Shown: positions 3,201-20,340 of the stretch, piece by piece | How the letters are laid out: every line of letters begins with the position of its first letter | How positions within the stretch are numbered: the stretch's first letter is position 1 | NCBI GenBank assembly: GCA_023484085.1 | Contig: JAMDAS010000001.1 | Location: 64,001 to 99,487, forward strand | From: Candidatus Omnitrophota bacterium | Lineage (GTDB): Bacteria; Ratteibacteria; UBA8468; B48-G9; DTJG01 | DNA length: 35,487 nt | Reading direction: 5' to 3' | Notes under the pieces: model-generated | What the model saw: only the letters and a program-made list of their open reading frames with translations | Told to the model about the DNA's origin: nothing | Databases searched by the model: none | Translations under genes and position numbers: made by a program

Positions 3201-4136
3201 TTAGAAAAATTCAATGTCACTGGGAGGTTTTGGGGTTATGTCAAAAAGAACTTTTACAACACCAGGAACTTCCCTGATTATTCTTTTTTGAATTTTTTCC
3301 ATCTTGGAACAGGTAGGATTATAAGGCCTGGCTGATATGATGTTTTTGGTTTCAACGGCTCTAACAACTACTACGTCACCTGTTATCTTTTTTTCATTAA
3401 TAATACCAGCAGCTTTCTCACCTAATAAAACAGGAAATGCCTGGTAAATTTTGGGACTTTTGAACTCTTCCTCCACAATGGAACTGAGTAATCTTATTTT
3501 TTCAATTCTTTCAGCCGTAATTTCCCCTCCGATTCTTGTCGTAAAACCCGTAAATGGGAAAGGAAAAACATGGACAATCTTAGGGGGAATTTTTAAAAGT
3601 TTAGCTATGGAATATACCTGGTTCTTATATAATTCTTTTAAAGGCTCTATAATTTTAAGCCCGTAAATCTGGGGATTTATGTCATCCTGAAAAACATTAT
3701 AAAAAGTTTTTACGCCCTTTTGAAATTCAATTATATCCGGAAGTATTGTCCCCTGTATTACGTACTCTACTGAATAGCTTTTCGTTGCCTGGCTGATTGT
3801 CCTGTAAAAAATATCCTTATAAATTTCTATTTTTTCTTCAGTAACGGTTTTTTCTTTTAATGCCTGGAAAAATTTTTCATTCATATCCCATACCTGAAGT
3901 TCAATATTGTATTTTTGAAGAAATTTATTTAAAACATCGGATTTATCTGACTTCACAAGGCCTGTGTTAACATAAAGAAAAATAGCATTTTCCTTTATGG
4001 CATTATAGGCAAGAAGGGCACAAACGACACTATCAACCCCCTCAGAAACAAGCACCAAAACCCTGTCTTCCTTAGCAACAGATTTTATTTCATTGATTTT
4101 TTCTTTTATAAATTTACTTGCATCAAATTTTGACAT
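3201..4136 (-). CDS. Stand-alone GuaA-type ATP-pyrophosphatase (GMP synthase PPase-subunit-like), divergent
   Basis: End-to-end resemblance to the GuaA C-terminal domain (SEGVDSVVCALL, YVNTGLV, VIQGTILPDIIE, IIEPLKELYKNQV, KRIIREVPGVVKVLFDITPKPPSDIEFF). No glutaminase domain. Start moved from the ORF-track Met (4202) to 4136 because a good promoter lies between them. Confidence 0.85.
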   Translation of the reverse strand: MSKFDASKFIKEKINEIKSVAKEDRVLVLVSEGVDSVVCALLAYNAIKENAIFLYVNTGLVKSDKSDVLNKFLQKYNIELQVWDMNEKFFQALKEKTVTEEKIEIYKDIFYRTISQATKSYSVEYVIQGTILPDIIEFQKGVKTFYNVFQDDINPQIYGLKIIEPLKELYKNQVYSIAKLLKIPPKIVHVFPFPFTGFTTRIGGEITAERIEKIRLLSSIVEEEFKSPKIYQAFPVLLGEKAAGIINEKKITGDVVVVRAVETKNIISARPYNPTCSKMEKIQKRIIREVPGVVKVLFDITPKPPSDIEFF

Positions 4137-4143
4137 TATTCTT

Positions 4144-4172
4144 AGTATAACATTTTTCACTTCAATCGTCAA
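4144..4172 (-). promoter_or_regulatory. Sigma-70-type promoter of the guaA-like/carB/hisH/hisF operon, positioned for a leaderless mRNA
   Basis: Reverse strand TTGACG-N17-TATACT-AAGAATA-ATG. Confidence 0.7.
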
Positions 4173-4202
4173 TTTTTCGCATTCCATAATTTTATTTAAC
4201 AA

Positions 4203-4265
4203 GGAGTTTTTTCAGGAGGCTCAACTTTAACTTATTTTACTGCTTCACTTAATAGGTGCAGTATA
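4203..4265. repeat. Imperfect direct repeat flanking the HicB-like ORF, copy A
   Basis: ggagttttttcaggaggctcaactttaacttattttactgcttcacttaataggtgcagtata resembles copy B at 4614-4678 by eye. Confidence 0.45.
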
Positions 4266-4351
4266 ATGCATTGCTTTTTTTAATTTTAGGCCTGATTGAG
4301 ATATTAAAATGTTTTAGCAGAACAATGTGAAATTTTTTAAAAAAGTCGTTT

Positions 4352-4528
4352 TTATTGATTGGGTACTTCAGCAAGTTCACGATTTGCCTCAAGTACTAAA
4401 TTCACTGCTTCAATTAGGTTATGCTTAGCTTCTTCTAAAGTTTTTCCTTGGGTATTGGCGCCAGGAAGTTCTTCAACAAAAGCAACATATTCTTCTGAAA
4501 ACTTTTGGTAAACTGCTGTTAGTTTCAT
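4352..4528 (-). CDS. HicB-like (type II toxin-antitoxin antitoxin / UPF0150) small protein
   Basis: Hand translation: MKLTAVYQKFSEEYVAFVEELPGANTQGKTLEEAKHNLIEAVNLVLEANRELAEVPNQ*. HicB-like 'AxVEELPGaxTqGkTleEAxxNlxEAv'. Strong SD (ggggagaag) before the ATG. 58 aa, below the ORF-track cutoff. Confidence 0.75.
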   Translation of the reverse strand: MKLTAVYQKFSEEYVAFVEELPGANTQGKTLEEAKHNLIEAVNLVLEANRELAEVPNQ

Positions 4529-4613
4529 CTTCTCCCCTGAAATATTTTTTGTTATTATACATCTTTTTTTATAATCTTCAAATTATTTATGGGGAAGTTT
4601 CTGTTTTTTCATA

Positions 4614-4678
4614 AAGGTTTTTTCAAGAAGTCTATTCTACGCTTATTTTACCTGCTCAACTAATGGGGAACAGTATAG
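4614..4678. repeat. Imperfect direct repeat flanking the HicB-like ORF, copy B
   Basis: aaaggttttttcaagaagtctattctacgcttattttacctgctcaactaatggggaacagtata; pairs with copy A at 4203-4265. Confidence 0.45.
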
Positions 4679-4767
4679 TAGTTTTGGTTATCCAGGATAT
4701 ATGTTAAAATACACCTAAGCAGGGCTGTTCAGTTTTTGGGGACCAGCTCAATTTTTATTTTATCAAA

Positions 4768-6858
4768 ATGGATACAAAAAATCTTCTTATTGAAATTGGA
4801 TGCGAAGACCTGCCCTCATGGACAGGGGAATCGTTTGTTCACCAGTTTAAAAATTCATTCAGGACGTTTATAGAAAACAGAAAGCTGCGGTTTGACGACA
4901 TAAATGTTTTCTGGACTCCAAGAAGGATTGTCCTGTTTGTAAAAGGCATCCCTGAAAAAACACCTGCTGAAAAAAAAGAAATAACAGGTCCAAGATTAAA
5001 CATCATTAAAGATGAAAATGGACATTATCATCCTGCAATTATGAAATTTGCCCAGGCTTATAATATCCAGCCTGAAAATCTTATGATAAAAGAAGCCGGG
5101 GATAAAAAAGCCGTCTATTTTTTAAAAGAAACAGCACCGGTTCCCGTAAAAAACATTATCGGTGAAGCAGTTATGGAGATTATAAAAAATTTAAATATTC
5201 CAAAATCCATGAAATGGGATAATTCCGGCTTAAAGTTTTACAGGCCGGTAAGATGGCTATTTTCCTTGTGGGATAATGAAAAAATATCCATGCACATGGG
5301 AGACGTAAAAAGTTCTTGTTTTACATACGGGCACAGGCTTATCAGCCCGGGAAAAATTCAGGTTAAACACTGGAAAGACTATTTTGACGTAATCCAGAAA
5401 AATTTTGTCATTATTGACAGGGAAGTAAGAAAAAAATTTATTTCTGCCCTTGTAAAAGAAAAAATCCAGACAGAAGAAAATGTTGACGAAACACTTTTTG
5501 AAAATTTGGCAGAGCTTGTTGAATATCCTGTCCTGTTAAGGTGTAAATTTCCATCTGACGTTCCATACATTCCTGATGAGATTGTAAAAATTATTATTGA
5601 AAAGGCAGAAGGAATCCCTTTATATAAAAATAAAATATTGTGCAGGGAGTTTCTTATCGTTTCTGATGGAATTGACAATCCTGATTGTATAAGAAATTAT
5701 GAAAAACTTATCAGGGACAGGATAATGGATGCCGTATTTTTTTATAATAACGACCTTCAGAAAAACCCCGGGACGTTCATTGAGATTACAAAAAAGATTT
5801 TATTCCATCCACAATGGGGCTCATTATATCAAAGGACCGAAAGACTTTGTACAATAGCAAAAAAAATTTCTGATATACTGAGTCTAAATGAAAGTTCATC
5901 AAAAAATCTTTGTCGTGCCGCGGAACTTTCAAAATTTGACATGGCTTCTTCAGTAGTCAGGGAATTCCCGCAATTAAGCGGAACAATGGGGAAAATATAT
6001 GCAAAAAAATGGGATGAAAATGAAACTGTATGCCAGGCAATAGAAGACCATTTAAGGCCAAAATTCCCCGGAGATAGTCTTCCTGTTTCTTATGAAGGCT
6101 CCATTTTGGCAATAATTGACAGGTTGGAGTATGTATGCACCTTTATATCTTCAAATGCAGAAATTTCAGGCTCAGAGGACCCCTATGGATTAAAAAGAAT
6201 CGGTAATACGCTTTTTGATATTATATGGGCTAAAAAGTATAATATTGAACTTACGCCTCTTATACATGAAACAGTTGATGCATTTAAACTGAAAAATCCG
6301 TCCGGGACAGAAAAAAATATAAGGGGTTTTATTATTCAAAGATTAGAGGCTCAATTGGGATTTGAAGGAATACCAAAAGGAGTAAGAGCCGGTATTATCT
6401 CGGTGGAAAATCTTAACGTATACAGGATAAGAGAAAAAGCAAATGCTTTTTCCCGGTTTATCGGAACAGTTGAGGGGGCTGAAAATATTTTTGTCCCGTT
6501 TTCAAGAATGGCAAACATATTAAAACAGGCAAAATCTCATAATATAATAAACTGGTATTTTGATGAAAAACTTCTTGTTGAAAAAGAGGAAAAAAATCTT
6601 TTTGAAATATTTAAGAGTAACGAGGATAAAGTAAAGGCATTCATAGAAAAAGAGGAATATCTTTTATTCCTGAATAAACTTCTTGATTTTAAAAAACCTG
6701 TGGATGATTTTTTTGATAAGGTGCTTGTGATGTGCCCGGAAGAAAACATAAGAAACAACCGGCTTGCATTTCTTGAAAAAATGAACAATATGTTTCTTTT
6801 TTTTGCGGATTTTTCTTTTATAAGGGAGGAAGACATAAAAAATGCTCGAAAAATTTGA
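4768..6858 (+). CDS. glyS: Glycyl-tRNA synthetase beta subunit
   Basis: [76 protein letters not shown]-like segments; 696 aa. Confidence 0.95.
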
Positions 6859-19114: not shown

Positions 19115-19987
19115 TTATGTCAATCCGTAAACCTTTAAAATTTTTTGAATTTTTTGTTTGTTTTCTTCAGATGGCATAGTCAAGGGTAGCCTCCATTCCA
19201 TATTAATCATACCCATCATTGAAAGACACGTTTTTACAGGAATAGGGTTTGTTTCAATAAAAAGGGTTTTAAAAAGGTTAAGAAAATTTAAGTGAATTTG
19301 TTTAGCTTTCTCCCATTCATTATCAAGTACATGTTTAACCATCTGACTGACTTCTCCGGGAATTATATTTGAAGCAACGGAGATTACTCCTTTTCCACCT
19401 ACAGACATAATAGGCAGAGTCATTGAATCGTCTCCTGAAAGCAGAACGAAATCTTTTGGGCATAAAGATATAATTTTGCTTACCTGGTCCATGCTGCCGC
19501 TGGCTTCCTTGATTCCCACAATATTTTTAAGCTCAGAAAGTCTCGCAACAGTTTCAGGAGAAATTGAAATACCTGTTCTTGAAGGCACGTTATAGAGTAT
19601 AACCGGCGTTTTAATTGTTTCTGAAATTGCTTTATAATGCTGATACAGACCCTCCTGTGTAGGTTTGTTATAATATGGTGTAATAACAAGAATCCCTTCA
19701 ACCCCTATTTTATCTGCAAAAACACTAAGCTCCACCGCTTCCCTGGTTGAATTTGAACCGGTACCTGCAATAACAGGAACACGTTTATTCACAATTTCCA
19801 GTGTAAATTCTATTATTTCTTTTTGTTCATCATGGGAAAGTGTTGCTGCTTCACCAGTACACCCGCACGGTACAATTGCATCAGTTCCATTACTGAGCTG
19901 AAACCCAATAAGTTTTTTATATGCTTCCTTATCAAAAATCCCATTTTTAAAAGGGGTTACAATGGCAACAATTGCTCCTTTAAACAT
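19115..19987 (-). CDS. dapA: 4-hydroxy-tetrahydrodipicolinate synthase
   Basis: MFKGAIVAIVTPFKNG, GCTGEAATLSHDEQKEII, VITPYYNKPTQEGLYQHYKAI, VILYNVPSRTGISI, GIKEASG. The MRRLRN extension contains the SD (GAGGAG), so start is placed at 19987. Confidence 0.96.
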   Translation of the reverse strand: MFKGAIVAIVTPFKNGIFDKEAYKKLIGFQLSNGTDAIVPCGCTGEAATLSHDEQKEIIEFTLEIVNKRVPVIAGTGSNSTREAVELSVFADKIGVEGILVITPYYNKPTQEGLYQHYKAISETIKTPVILYNVPSRTGISISPETVARLSELKNIVGIKEASGSMDQVSKIISLCPKDFVLLSGDDSMTLPIMSVGGKGVISVASNIIPGEVSQMVKHVLDNEWEKAKQIHLNFLNLFKTLFIETNPIPVKTCLSMMGMINMEWRLPLTMPSEENKQKIQKILKVYGLT

Positions 19988-20060
19988 ATTTCTTAATCTC
20001 CTCATATCAATTCAGTTTATCCGTTTATTATATCAAATTGAAAAAAATTATGCAATAGAA

Positions 20061-20092
20061 CGCGCCTGGCCAGACTTGAACTGGCCACCTTT
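20061..20092 (-). repeat. Partial duplicate of the tRNA-Arg 3' end (T-arm plus 3' acceptor strand)
   Basis: cgcgcctggccagacttgaactggccaccttt matches 20241-20272 (cgcgcctggccagacttgaactggcaaccttt) at 31/32 positions. Confidence 0.9.
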
Positions 20093-20094
20093 CA

Positions 20095-20125
20095 CAAAAG
20101 TCAAGTATTTCAGACTTGACTTTTG
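20095..20125. repeat. Perfect hairpin 1 of the tRNA-adjacent cassette
   Basis: CAAAAGTCAAGT atttcag ACTTGACTTTTG: 12 bp perfect stem. Confidence 0.9.
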
Positions 20126-20129
20126 CTCT

Positions 20130-20155
20130 TTAAGGGGGAACAAGTTCCCCCTTAA
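20130..20155. repeat. Perfect hairpin 2 of the tRNA-adjacent cassette
   Basis: TTAAGGGGGAAC aa GTTCCCCCTTAA: near-perfect palindrome, 12 bp arms. Confidence 0.9.
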
Positions 20156-20170
20156 TCTTCCCCCTACTAC

Positions 20171-20193
20171 GTGGGAAAAGCCTCTTTTCCCAC
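20171..20193. repeat. Perfect hairpin 3 of the tRNA-adjacent cassette
   Basis: GTGGGAAAAG cct CTTTTCCCAC: 10 bp perfect stem. Confidence 0.9.
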
Positions 20194-20209
20194 ACCCTTA
20201 TTAAATCTC

Positions 20210-20223
20210 GCCAGTTCAAATCT
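20210..20223 (+). repeat. Inverted copy of the tRNA T-arm segment closing the cassette
   Basis: GCCAGTTCAAATCT is the reverse complement of AGACTTGAACTGGC (20072-20085) at 13/14 positions. Confidence 0.75.
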
Positions 20224-20240
20224 CTCAAAGAAGTAAAAAT

Positions 20241-20314
20241 CGCGCCTGGCCAGACTTGAACTGGCAACCTTTGGATTCGAAGTCCACCGCTCTATCCAAC
20301 TGAGCTACAGGCGC
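20241..20314 (-). tRNA. tRNA-Arg (anticodon TCG)
   Basis: GCGCCTGTAGCTCAGTTGGATAGAGCGGTGGACTTCGAATCCAAAGGTTGCCAGTTCAAGTCTGGCCAGGCGCG: 7 bp acceptor stem, T-arm GCCAG-TTCAAGT-CTGGC, anticodon loop CTTCGAA. No encoded CCA. Confidence 0.93.
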
Positions 20315-20340
20315 AATAAATATAAAAATTCATGTCCAAA

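Follow-up and report, generated by a model that had tools for sequence, protein, structure and literature searches.

Short, gene-less cassettes that probably move between tRNA genes in a little-studied bacterial phylum

Transfer RNA genes are the best-known landing sites of mobile DNA in bacteria, and an insert found behind one of them is usually explained by an integrase and a fixed attachment site. The locus described here, found behind a tRNA-Arg(TCG) gene in a 35,487-nucleotide stretch of a Candidatus Omnitrophota genome (termed ‘the window’), raises the question of what kind of element might surround a short, hairpin-rich insert with copies of the tRNA’s own 3' end, one direct and one inverted. 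An initial sequence-only reading of the block had reported a direct copy of the tRNA tail, three perfect hairpins and an inverted copy of the T arm, had noted that a direct repeat at a tRNA 3' end is the classic footprint of tyrosine-recombinase integration, and had offered as interpretations a minimal non-autonomous element, the scar of a lost island or a processed structured RNA. Each of the reported features was recovered, with the same lengths, positions and match counts. They are listed below for the cassette and its host gene (20061-20315, minus strand), where X denotes the T-arm side of the gene, Y the acceptor 3' strand, T the trailer and X' the reverse complement of X.

20240..20315, minus strand: host gene, tRNA-Arg(TCG) (ARAGORN; Rfam RF00005, 69.3 bits)
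20241-20272, minus strand: host tail X1-Y1 of tRNA-Arg(TCG), within the host gene
20224..20239, minus strand: trailer T, 16 nt, TTTTTACTTCTTTGAG, containing the CTTCTTTGA motif that is shared with many cassette trailers
20210..20223, minus strand: X', the T arm of tRNA-Arg(TCG) in inverted form, 13/14 by sequence comparison
20093..20209, minus strand: class A structured core, including a copy-specific 3' hairpin (model R1, 20125-20201, 96.9 bits, E 2.2e-22)
20171..20193, minus strand: hairpin HP3 of the class A core, GTGGGAAAAG/CTTTTCCCAC, a perfect inverted repeat of 10 bp
20130..20155, minus strand: hairpin HP2 of the class A core, TTAAGGGGGAAC/GTTCCCCCTTAA, a perfect inverted repeat of 12 bp
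20095..20125, minus strand: extra hairpin, 12 bp and perfect, found in the window copy only
20061..20092, minus strand: X2-Y2, a direct copy of the tRNA-Arg(TCG) 3' end, 31/32 against 20241-20272 at a spacing of 180
19115..20005, minus strand: next ORF downstream, dapA-like, 296 aa (named from its translation by inspection), in the flank outside the element

Along the tRNA strand the parts are ordered as tRNA tail, 16-nt trailer, inverted T arm, hairpins and tail copy. When the downstream sequence was shuffled 1000 times, the direct tail copy was matched 0 times and the inverted copy 2 times; folded as RNA on the tRNA strand, the element has a predicted energy of -75.5 kcal/mol (z = -5.1), which was equalled by 0 of 200 dinucleotide shuffles. 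The conserved class A core in the window consists of HP2 and HP3, and the hairpin at 20095-20125 is peculiar to this copy, with no counterpart in the other class A copies that were inspected. The loop side of that hairpin repeats the T-loop word CAAGTCTG, and the hairpin as a whole is built from T-loop words of tRNA-Arg (CAAGTCTG and its inverse); it is perhaps the leftover of an earlier unit. The comparison of the tRNA-Arg(TCG) locus with relatives, proposed from the outset, gave a partial answer: the gene stands without a cassette in the sister species G001, where the upstream flank is syntenic but the downstream flank is rearranged.

The proposed search for additional copies beside other tRNA genes was more productive, in both the home genome (906 kb in 27 contigs, 63% complete) and its relatives. 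A second class A hairpin pair of the home genome is found behind tRNA-Ala(CGC), in the same orientation, and there carries the tail of tRNA-Ala and not that of tRNA-Arg. Further class A copies lie behind tRNA-Ser, -Phe, -Lys, -Ala and -Val in relatives, and the good-scoring matches that were inspected lie behind tRNA-Thr, Gly, Ala, Val, Ile, Leu, Lys, Met and others, as well as behind tmRNA (confirmed with Rfam) in four genomes. Reading of 22 tRNAs of the home genome revealed two additional kinds of core, such that three classes (A, B and C) are arranged on one common plan, in which the tRNA tail X-Y is followed by the trailer T, the inverted T arm X', a structured core and a second tail, X2-Y2. 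The class B core follows the pattern GAGCGAAG... hairpin ...GGCCGACCCC...GGGG, and the class C core the pattern TTCACCAC...stem...GTGTGCGTCA. Cassettes are nearly always located 3' of the tRNA and on its strand. They may form arrays of mixed class (behind tRNA-Asp of the home genome, a class C unit is followed by a class B unit), in which the last copy of the module stops variably, within T, within X' or part-way into a core; cut-down copies and remnants are frequent. The tmRNA hosts at loci L032, L084, L085 and L090 score 140-161 bits with Rfam, are not called by ARAGORN and have GCAGTACCCGC at their 3' end, where a T-loop would normally stand.

The distribution of the classes was followed with covariance models built from 15 class A copies (R1) and 22 class B cores (R2), and all class counts rest on models made in this analysis. 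Genomes were read as separate stretches, chosen around tRNA genes and matches to the models. Class A was matched in 21 of the 35 genomes of the phylum, although the weakest R1 matches include unrelated repeats (for example L091 and L092, which are G-rich and were rejected). Class B was matched in 22 of the 35, with more than 150 copies, and outside the phylum in 1 of 28 genomes, by a weak match. The same plan recurs in metagenome-assembled genomes (MAGs) from different projects; because all are drafts, array lengths are uncertain and a missing gene family is no proof of absence. In a scan made with a single threshold, an inverted T-arm copy was found within 160 nt behind 17/22 tRNAs of the home genome, 22/43 of G001 and 1/34 of G014, a relative from the same order, and a direct tail copy behind 12/22, 18/43 and 0/34, respectively; upstream controls gave 0-1 (1 and 0 in the home genome). 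The single G014 match is best read as chance, as probably is one match in the home genome, 150 nt behind tRNA-Met. Many tRNAs of element-rich genomes have no cassette. The class A motif had no match among IMG/VR viral contigs and is therefore not phage-borne in that set. A class A 19-mer was matched in GTDB contigs from Uhrbacteria, Clostridia, Lewinella, a record labelled Rickettsia and another MAG (L062, L064, L066, L071 and L072); these hold no module by inspection and look like chance. Of the outcomes named at the start as speaking against a mobile element (a single copy, lack of conservation, or an ordinary island between the repeats in relatives), none was encountered.

The flanks of the cores proved to be specific to the tRNA that each adjoins. 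Among 98 class B copies examined closely, 75 are first copies, with a core that starts 22-37 nt (median 29) past a tRNA on the same strand, and these cover 27 anticodons. Of the others, most belong further along an array or are situated at a contig end; one adjoins a tRNA that is partially N-masked, and for a few (L287 and L295 among them) no neighbouring tRNA could be recognised. The X2 of a first copy matches its own tRNA in 68 of 75 cases, versus 2 of 750 comparisons with other tRNAs. The joints are equally well defined, in tRNA numbering counted off the T-loop GTTC: in class B, X' is complementary to the tRNA from nucleotide 54 in 96% of cases (versus 29% at 53), and X2 begins at nucleotide 56 in 96% (versus 26% at 55). 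For class C the corresponding positions are 52 and 58, and for class A X' runs from about nucleotide 43, with X2 starting about there, less sharply. Each class therefore joins at its own fixed position in every tRNA, and because X' extends slightly beyond X2, the full partner of X' is the genuine tRNA. Bases at the inner edge of X' that might derive from a donor were also considered; a mismatch was seen in only 5 of 30 tRNAs with G57, too few to use.

Evidence that the cores move comes from their relationships and from syntenic comparisons. Class B cores differ by a mean distance of 0.21 within a genome, whatever the tRNA, and between genomes by 0.30 at the same tRNA and 0.32 at different tRNAs (0 of 2000 permutations); cores that sit behind different tRNAs within a genome are up to 98.8% identical, with differing flanks. 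The same insert is thus found at different loci, and close relatives also provide occupied and empty sites, in comparisons between species and not between strains. At the syntenic tRNA-Trp locus, a class B cassette is present in G001 and X' alone in the home genome; at tRNA-Gly(GCC), also syntenic, the home genome has a class C cassette and G001 a mere remnant, and at the syntenic tRNA-Ala(TGC) a class C cassette of G001 corresponds to a remnant at most in the home genome. The tRNA-Phe gene is cassette-free in both sister species, with matching downstream sequence, while tRNA-His and tRNA-Cys carry cassettes of different class in the two species (B versus C), at loci of uncertain orthology. 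The tRNA-Trp pair is the most informative: the empty site has a single X-Y-T-X' module and the occupied site has two such modules flanking the core. It follows that the insert is the core, and that the duplicated part is the module bounded by the inverted repeat.

The window feature is accordingly best regarded, with a probability of roughly 0.6, as one copy of a phylum-wide, non-autonomous and non-coding family of mobile cassettes, around which a module at the 3' flank of tRNA and tmRNA genes is duplicated. The ‘minimal element’ of the earlier interpretation thereby gains strong support, from many copies at many tRNAs, syntenic empty sites and movement within genomes. What was read directly from the genomes comprises the architecture, the tRNA-specific flanks, the class-fixed joints, the spread of cores within a genome, the occupied and empty sites, and the covariation of class B stems described below. 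The moving part would be a core of about 80-115 nt, composed of conserved hairpins (class A in the window), and its target the 3' flank of a tRNA or tmRNA gene in the form of an inverted-repeat module, X, Y, T, X'. The core would enter immediately behind X', with all or the first part of the module copied once more beyond it, to yield tRNA-[XYTX']-core-[XYT...]; the 3' end of the gene stays intact because the module is recopied behind the core. Successive rounds would generate arrays, including those of mixed class, and recombination between the direct copies would delete a core and leave a scar of X' alone. The last copy of the module would then be the original flank, and if so its variable ends are to be expected, since an old flank has its own history.

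Two routes might give such products, which are themselves all that is seen, and in either of them insertion would amount to DNA copying at the module. In one, a new strand formed during replication would quit its template at X', copy a core from elsewhere by way of short T-loop homology, and return at X, such that X-Y-T is copied twice; this template switching suits the negative enzyme searches described below, because it needs no dedicated enzyme. In the other, a putative integrase would read X...X' as an inverted repeat. The hairpins of the core may be kept because they fold, as RNA or as single-stranded DNA, during spread or in a transcript.

That the cores fold is indicated most clearly for class B, where 14 of 20 pairs are changed on both sides and 52 cells show such changes versus 14 in shuffles (0/500), beyond what the control gives; class C shows only moderate covariation. 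A class C pseudoknot (CCATACA/TGTATGG) was considered and dropped, being present in one copy and not conserved. In class A, double changes affect 3 of 15 predicted pairs, in alignments with little covariation energy, and in its HP3 3 of 6 modelled pairs are changed on both sides across copies. On the tRNA strand of class B, G-U pairs outnumber A-C pairs by 72 to 32, in copies that are not independent of one another; the excess hints, without proving it, that this strand is the one that folds. With Rfam, only tRNA and tmRNA were matched above the gathering score, and the hairpin block gave no known family for classes A-C at gathering or relaxed thresholds. A processed structured RNA, as had been suggested, is possible as an additional role, given the covarying class B stems and their G-U excess.

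These same observations are those that favour a structured RNA useful to the host and acting in cis, that is, a pre-tRNA trailer that steers folding, processing or stability, with the similarity between tRNAs maintained by gene conversion. X' might bind the tRNA's T arm, and X2 might pair with X' and so free that arm; the nearly invariable position 3' of the tRNA on its own strand, and the fact that X' matches the genuine tRNA over a longer stretch than it matches X2, are in keeping with such an arrangement. Structure by itself cannot decide between host function and spread, because selection acting while the element spreads would have an identical signature. However, a host-serving trailer would have to be dispensable at all 34 sampled tRNAs of the same-order relative and at many tRNAs of the element-rich genomes themselves, while being of different class at same-kind tRNAs of sister species; shortened copies and remnants are common, and in one case a tRNA-Ser copy is broken by the cassette. 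This explanation is considered unlikely. Insertion by a Cas1-type enzyme or a reverse transcriptase, either through a duplication of repeats resembling CRISPR adaptation or through copying of the tRNA tail, is a good deal less probable. An inverted-repeat-bounded module doubled around an insert, and arrays with different inserts, do recall such systems, and X2-Y2 of class B would look like the 3' piece of a tRNA cleaved in its T loop. Nevertheless, neither Cas1, RVT_1 nor Y1 transposase was detected in the element-rich sister genome G001 (a draft, 90% complete); RVT_1 is found in 3 of the 35 genomes of the phylum, and two Cas1 proteins occur in G014, which is element-free.

Conventional integration by a site-specific tyrosine recombinase acting at tRNA 3' ends, with the cassette as a minimal element or a scar, appears slightly more improbable still. 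It would explain why a tRNA 3' end is repeated in direct orientation while the tRNA stays intact, and PF00589 proteins occur in 34 of 35 genomes. A normal attP, however, has one fixed core sequence, whereas the repeat of the cassette is rewritten for each host (at least 27 kinds of tRNA) and is accompanied by an inverted copy of the same tRNA, and the joints vary by class. Several element-bearing genomes (G002, G003, G004, G005, G008 and G024) have only one or two PF00589 proteins, presumably the housekeeping XerC/D, and no additional integrase. The ‘classic footprint’ of a tyrosine recombinase is for these reasons not supported, and the scar of an island or prophage is rejected, no island being present at the site in any relative that was read. 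The distributions of Cas1, RVT_1, Y1_Tnp and Phage_integrase do not match that of the cassettes, so that all four were rejected as movers, and among the families and genomes searched no enzyme or autonomous relative of the cassette was identified. Chance palindromes, an assembly artefact or simple tandem slippage at a single tRNA can be given practically no weight: several arrays do lie at contig ends, where assemblies fail, but a single plan in MAGs of different projects, the statistics of flanks, clustering and scans, and the syntenic empty sites already refute such a reading.

With the mobile-cassette reading preferred, its relation to known systems can be considered. Integrative elements at tRNA sites also occupy the tRNA 3' end, leave the tRNA intact and copy its tail directly. 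They include the tycheposons, transposons of 4-200 kbp that carry cargo and employ the tyrosine recombinase xerD (PMC10872708). Such elements are of kilobase scale, with genes and a recombinase, whereas the cassette is about 100 nt long and gene-less, brings in an inverted copy as well and has flanks rewritten to suit each tRNA; no dedicated integrase was found with it, and the X2 comparisons given above (68/75 versus 2/750) leave no fixed attachment core. REP/BIME sequences and MITEs are short, non-coding, hairpin-rich and multi-copy repeats without an enzyme of their own, and in all of these respects the cassette resembles them. It differs in that its termini, X' and X2, vary with the tRNA, in place of the constant terminal inverted repeats of a MITE, and in that it is found almost only behind tRNA and tmRNA genes; the Y1 transposase expected of a REP/BIME (RAYT) system was not detected in the element-rich drafts G000 and G001. 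Casposons also target tRNA 3' ends, and like CRISPR adaptation they place an insert at the edge of a duplicated module. The inserts of the cassettes, however, are a few recurring, conserved and structured classes and not foreign spacers, the repeat is a tRNA tail, and Cas1 was undetected in G000, G001 (both drafts) and others. Nor is a retroelement indicated, given the rarity of RVT_1 and a group II intron in a G061 copy that is read as a secondary insertion. Integron cassettes likewise form arrays of different units at one site and use folded sites, but the tRNA cassette has no ORF and its site changes from one tRNA to another. Rickettsia palindromic elements and similar repeats are short palindromes within or beside RNA genes and interrupt genes, while the cassette leaves its gene whole, with the end duplicated.

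The cassette fits none of the known families tested, and no earlier description of it was found in a literature search that covered open-licence papers only and is therefore weak evidence. We know of no mechanism that yields a gene-less insert which follows tRNAs and copies their tail in both directions with joints that are near base-exact. It is tentatively suggested, as a proposal somewhat less probable than its converse, that the cassette may represent a new kind of mobile element: a structured unit of some 100 nt, devoid of genes, which passes from one tRNA or tmRNA gene to another and renews its two flanks from each new target, with class-fixed joints (about nucleotides 43/44, 54/56 and 52/58). 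It would do without a reverse transcriptase, Cas1, a Y1 transposase or a dedicated integrase, and might fold as RNA or single-stranded DNA and direct template switching, or even act by a catalysis of its own. Because a cassette is present behind most tRNA genes of some genomes, the family bears on tRNA expression and annotation throughout the phylum, and the covariance models from this analysis make it searchable.

A number of additional observations concern unusual copies and arrangements. In two genomes (L261:150-500 and L247), a tandem pair of tRNA-Ser(CGA) genes was found; a class B core interrupts the T loop of the first gene, and the X-Y-T copy is lacking. The class A copy behind tRNA-Ser(CGA) of an Omnitrophota MAG (L070) contains, at 3370-5250 and within the HP3 stem, a group II intron with a reverse transcriptase ORF of 443 aa (identified by inspection); it was considered as an autonomous parent and rejected, since its location inside HP3 looks like that of a secondary insertion. 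Four contigs of G006 (C114, C57, C89 and C11; L106-L109) have tandem units of about 205 bp with no tRNA nearby, in which a class-A-like core lies between two different stems, AGTGTGCTG.../GTGTCGTGTC...; these arrays are perhaps a related element independent of tRNAs. A further repeat, AAGTTTGGATTGTC...GAGCAATCCAGAACTTATTTC..., is located without an X2 at L008, L006, L012 and L136, where its hosts are tRNA-Arg(TCT), Gly(TCC), Gly(GCC) and Ala(TGC), and is possibly another class. Finally, L055 and L103 of G006 carry extra modules with paired arms that co-vary (GTGCTGGTGCGATGAAGAAAGAGCACCGTATAGCAC versus CTGCTAACGCGATGAAGAAAGAGCGTTGTATAGCAG), which probably constitute a fourth class, D.
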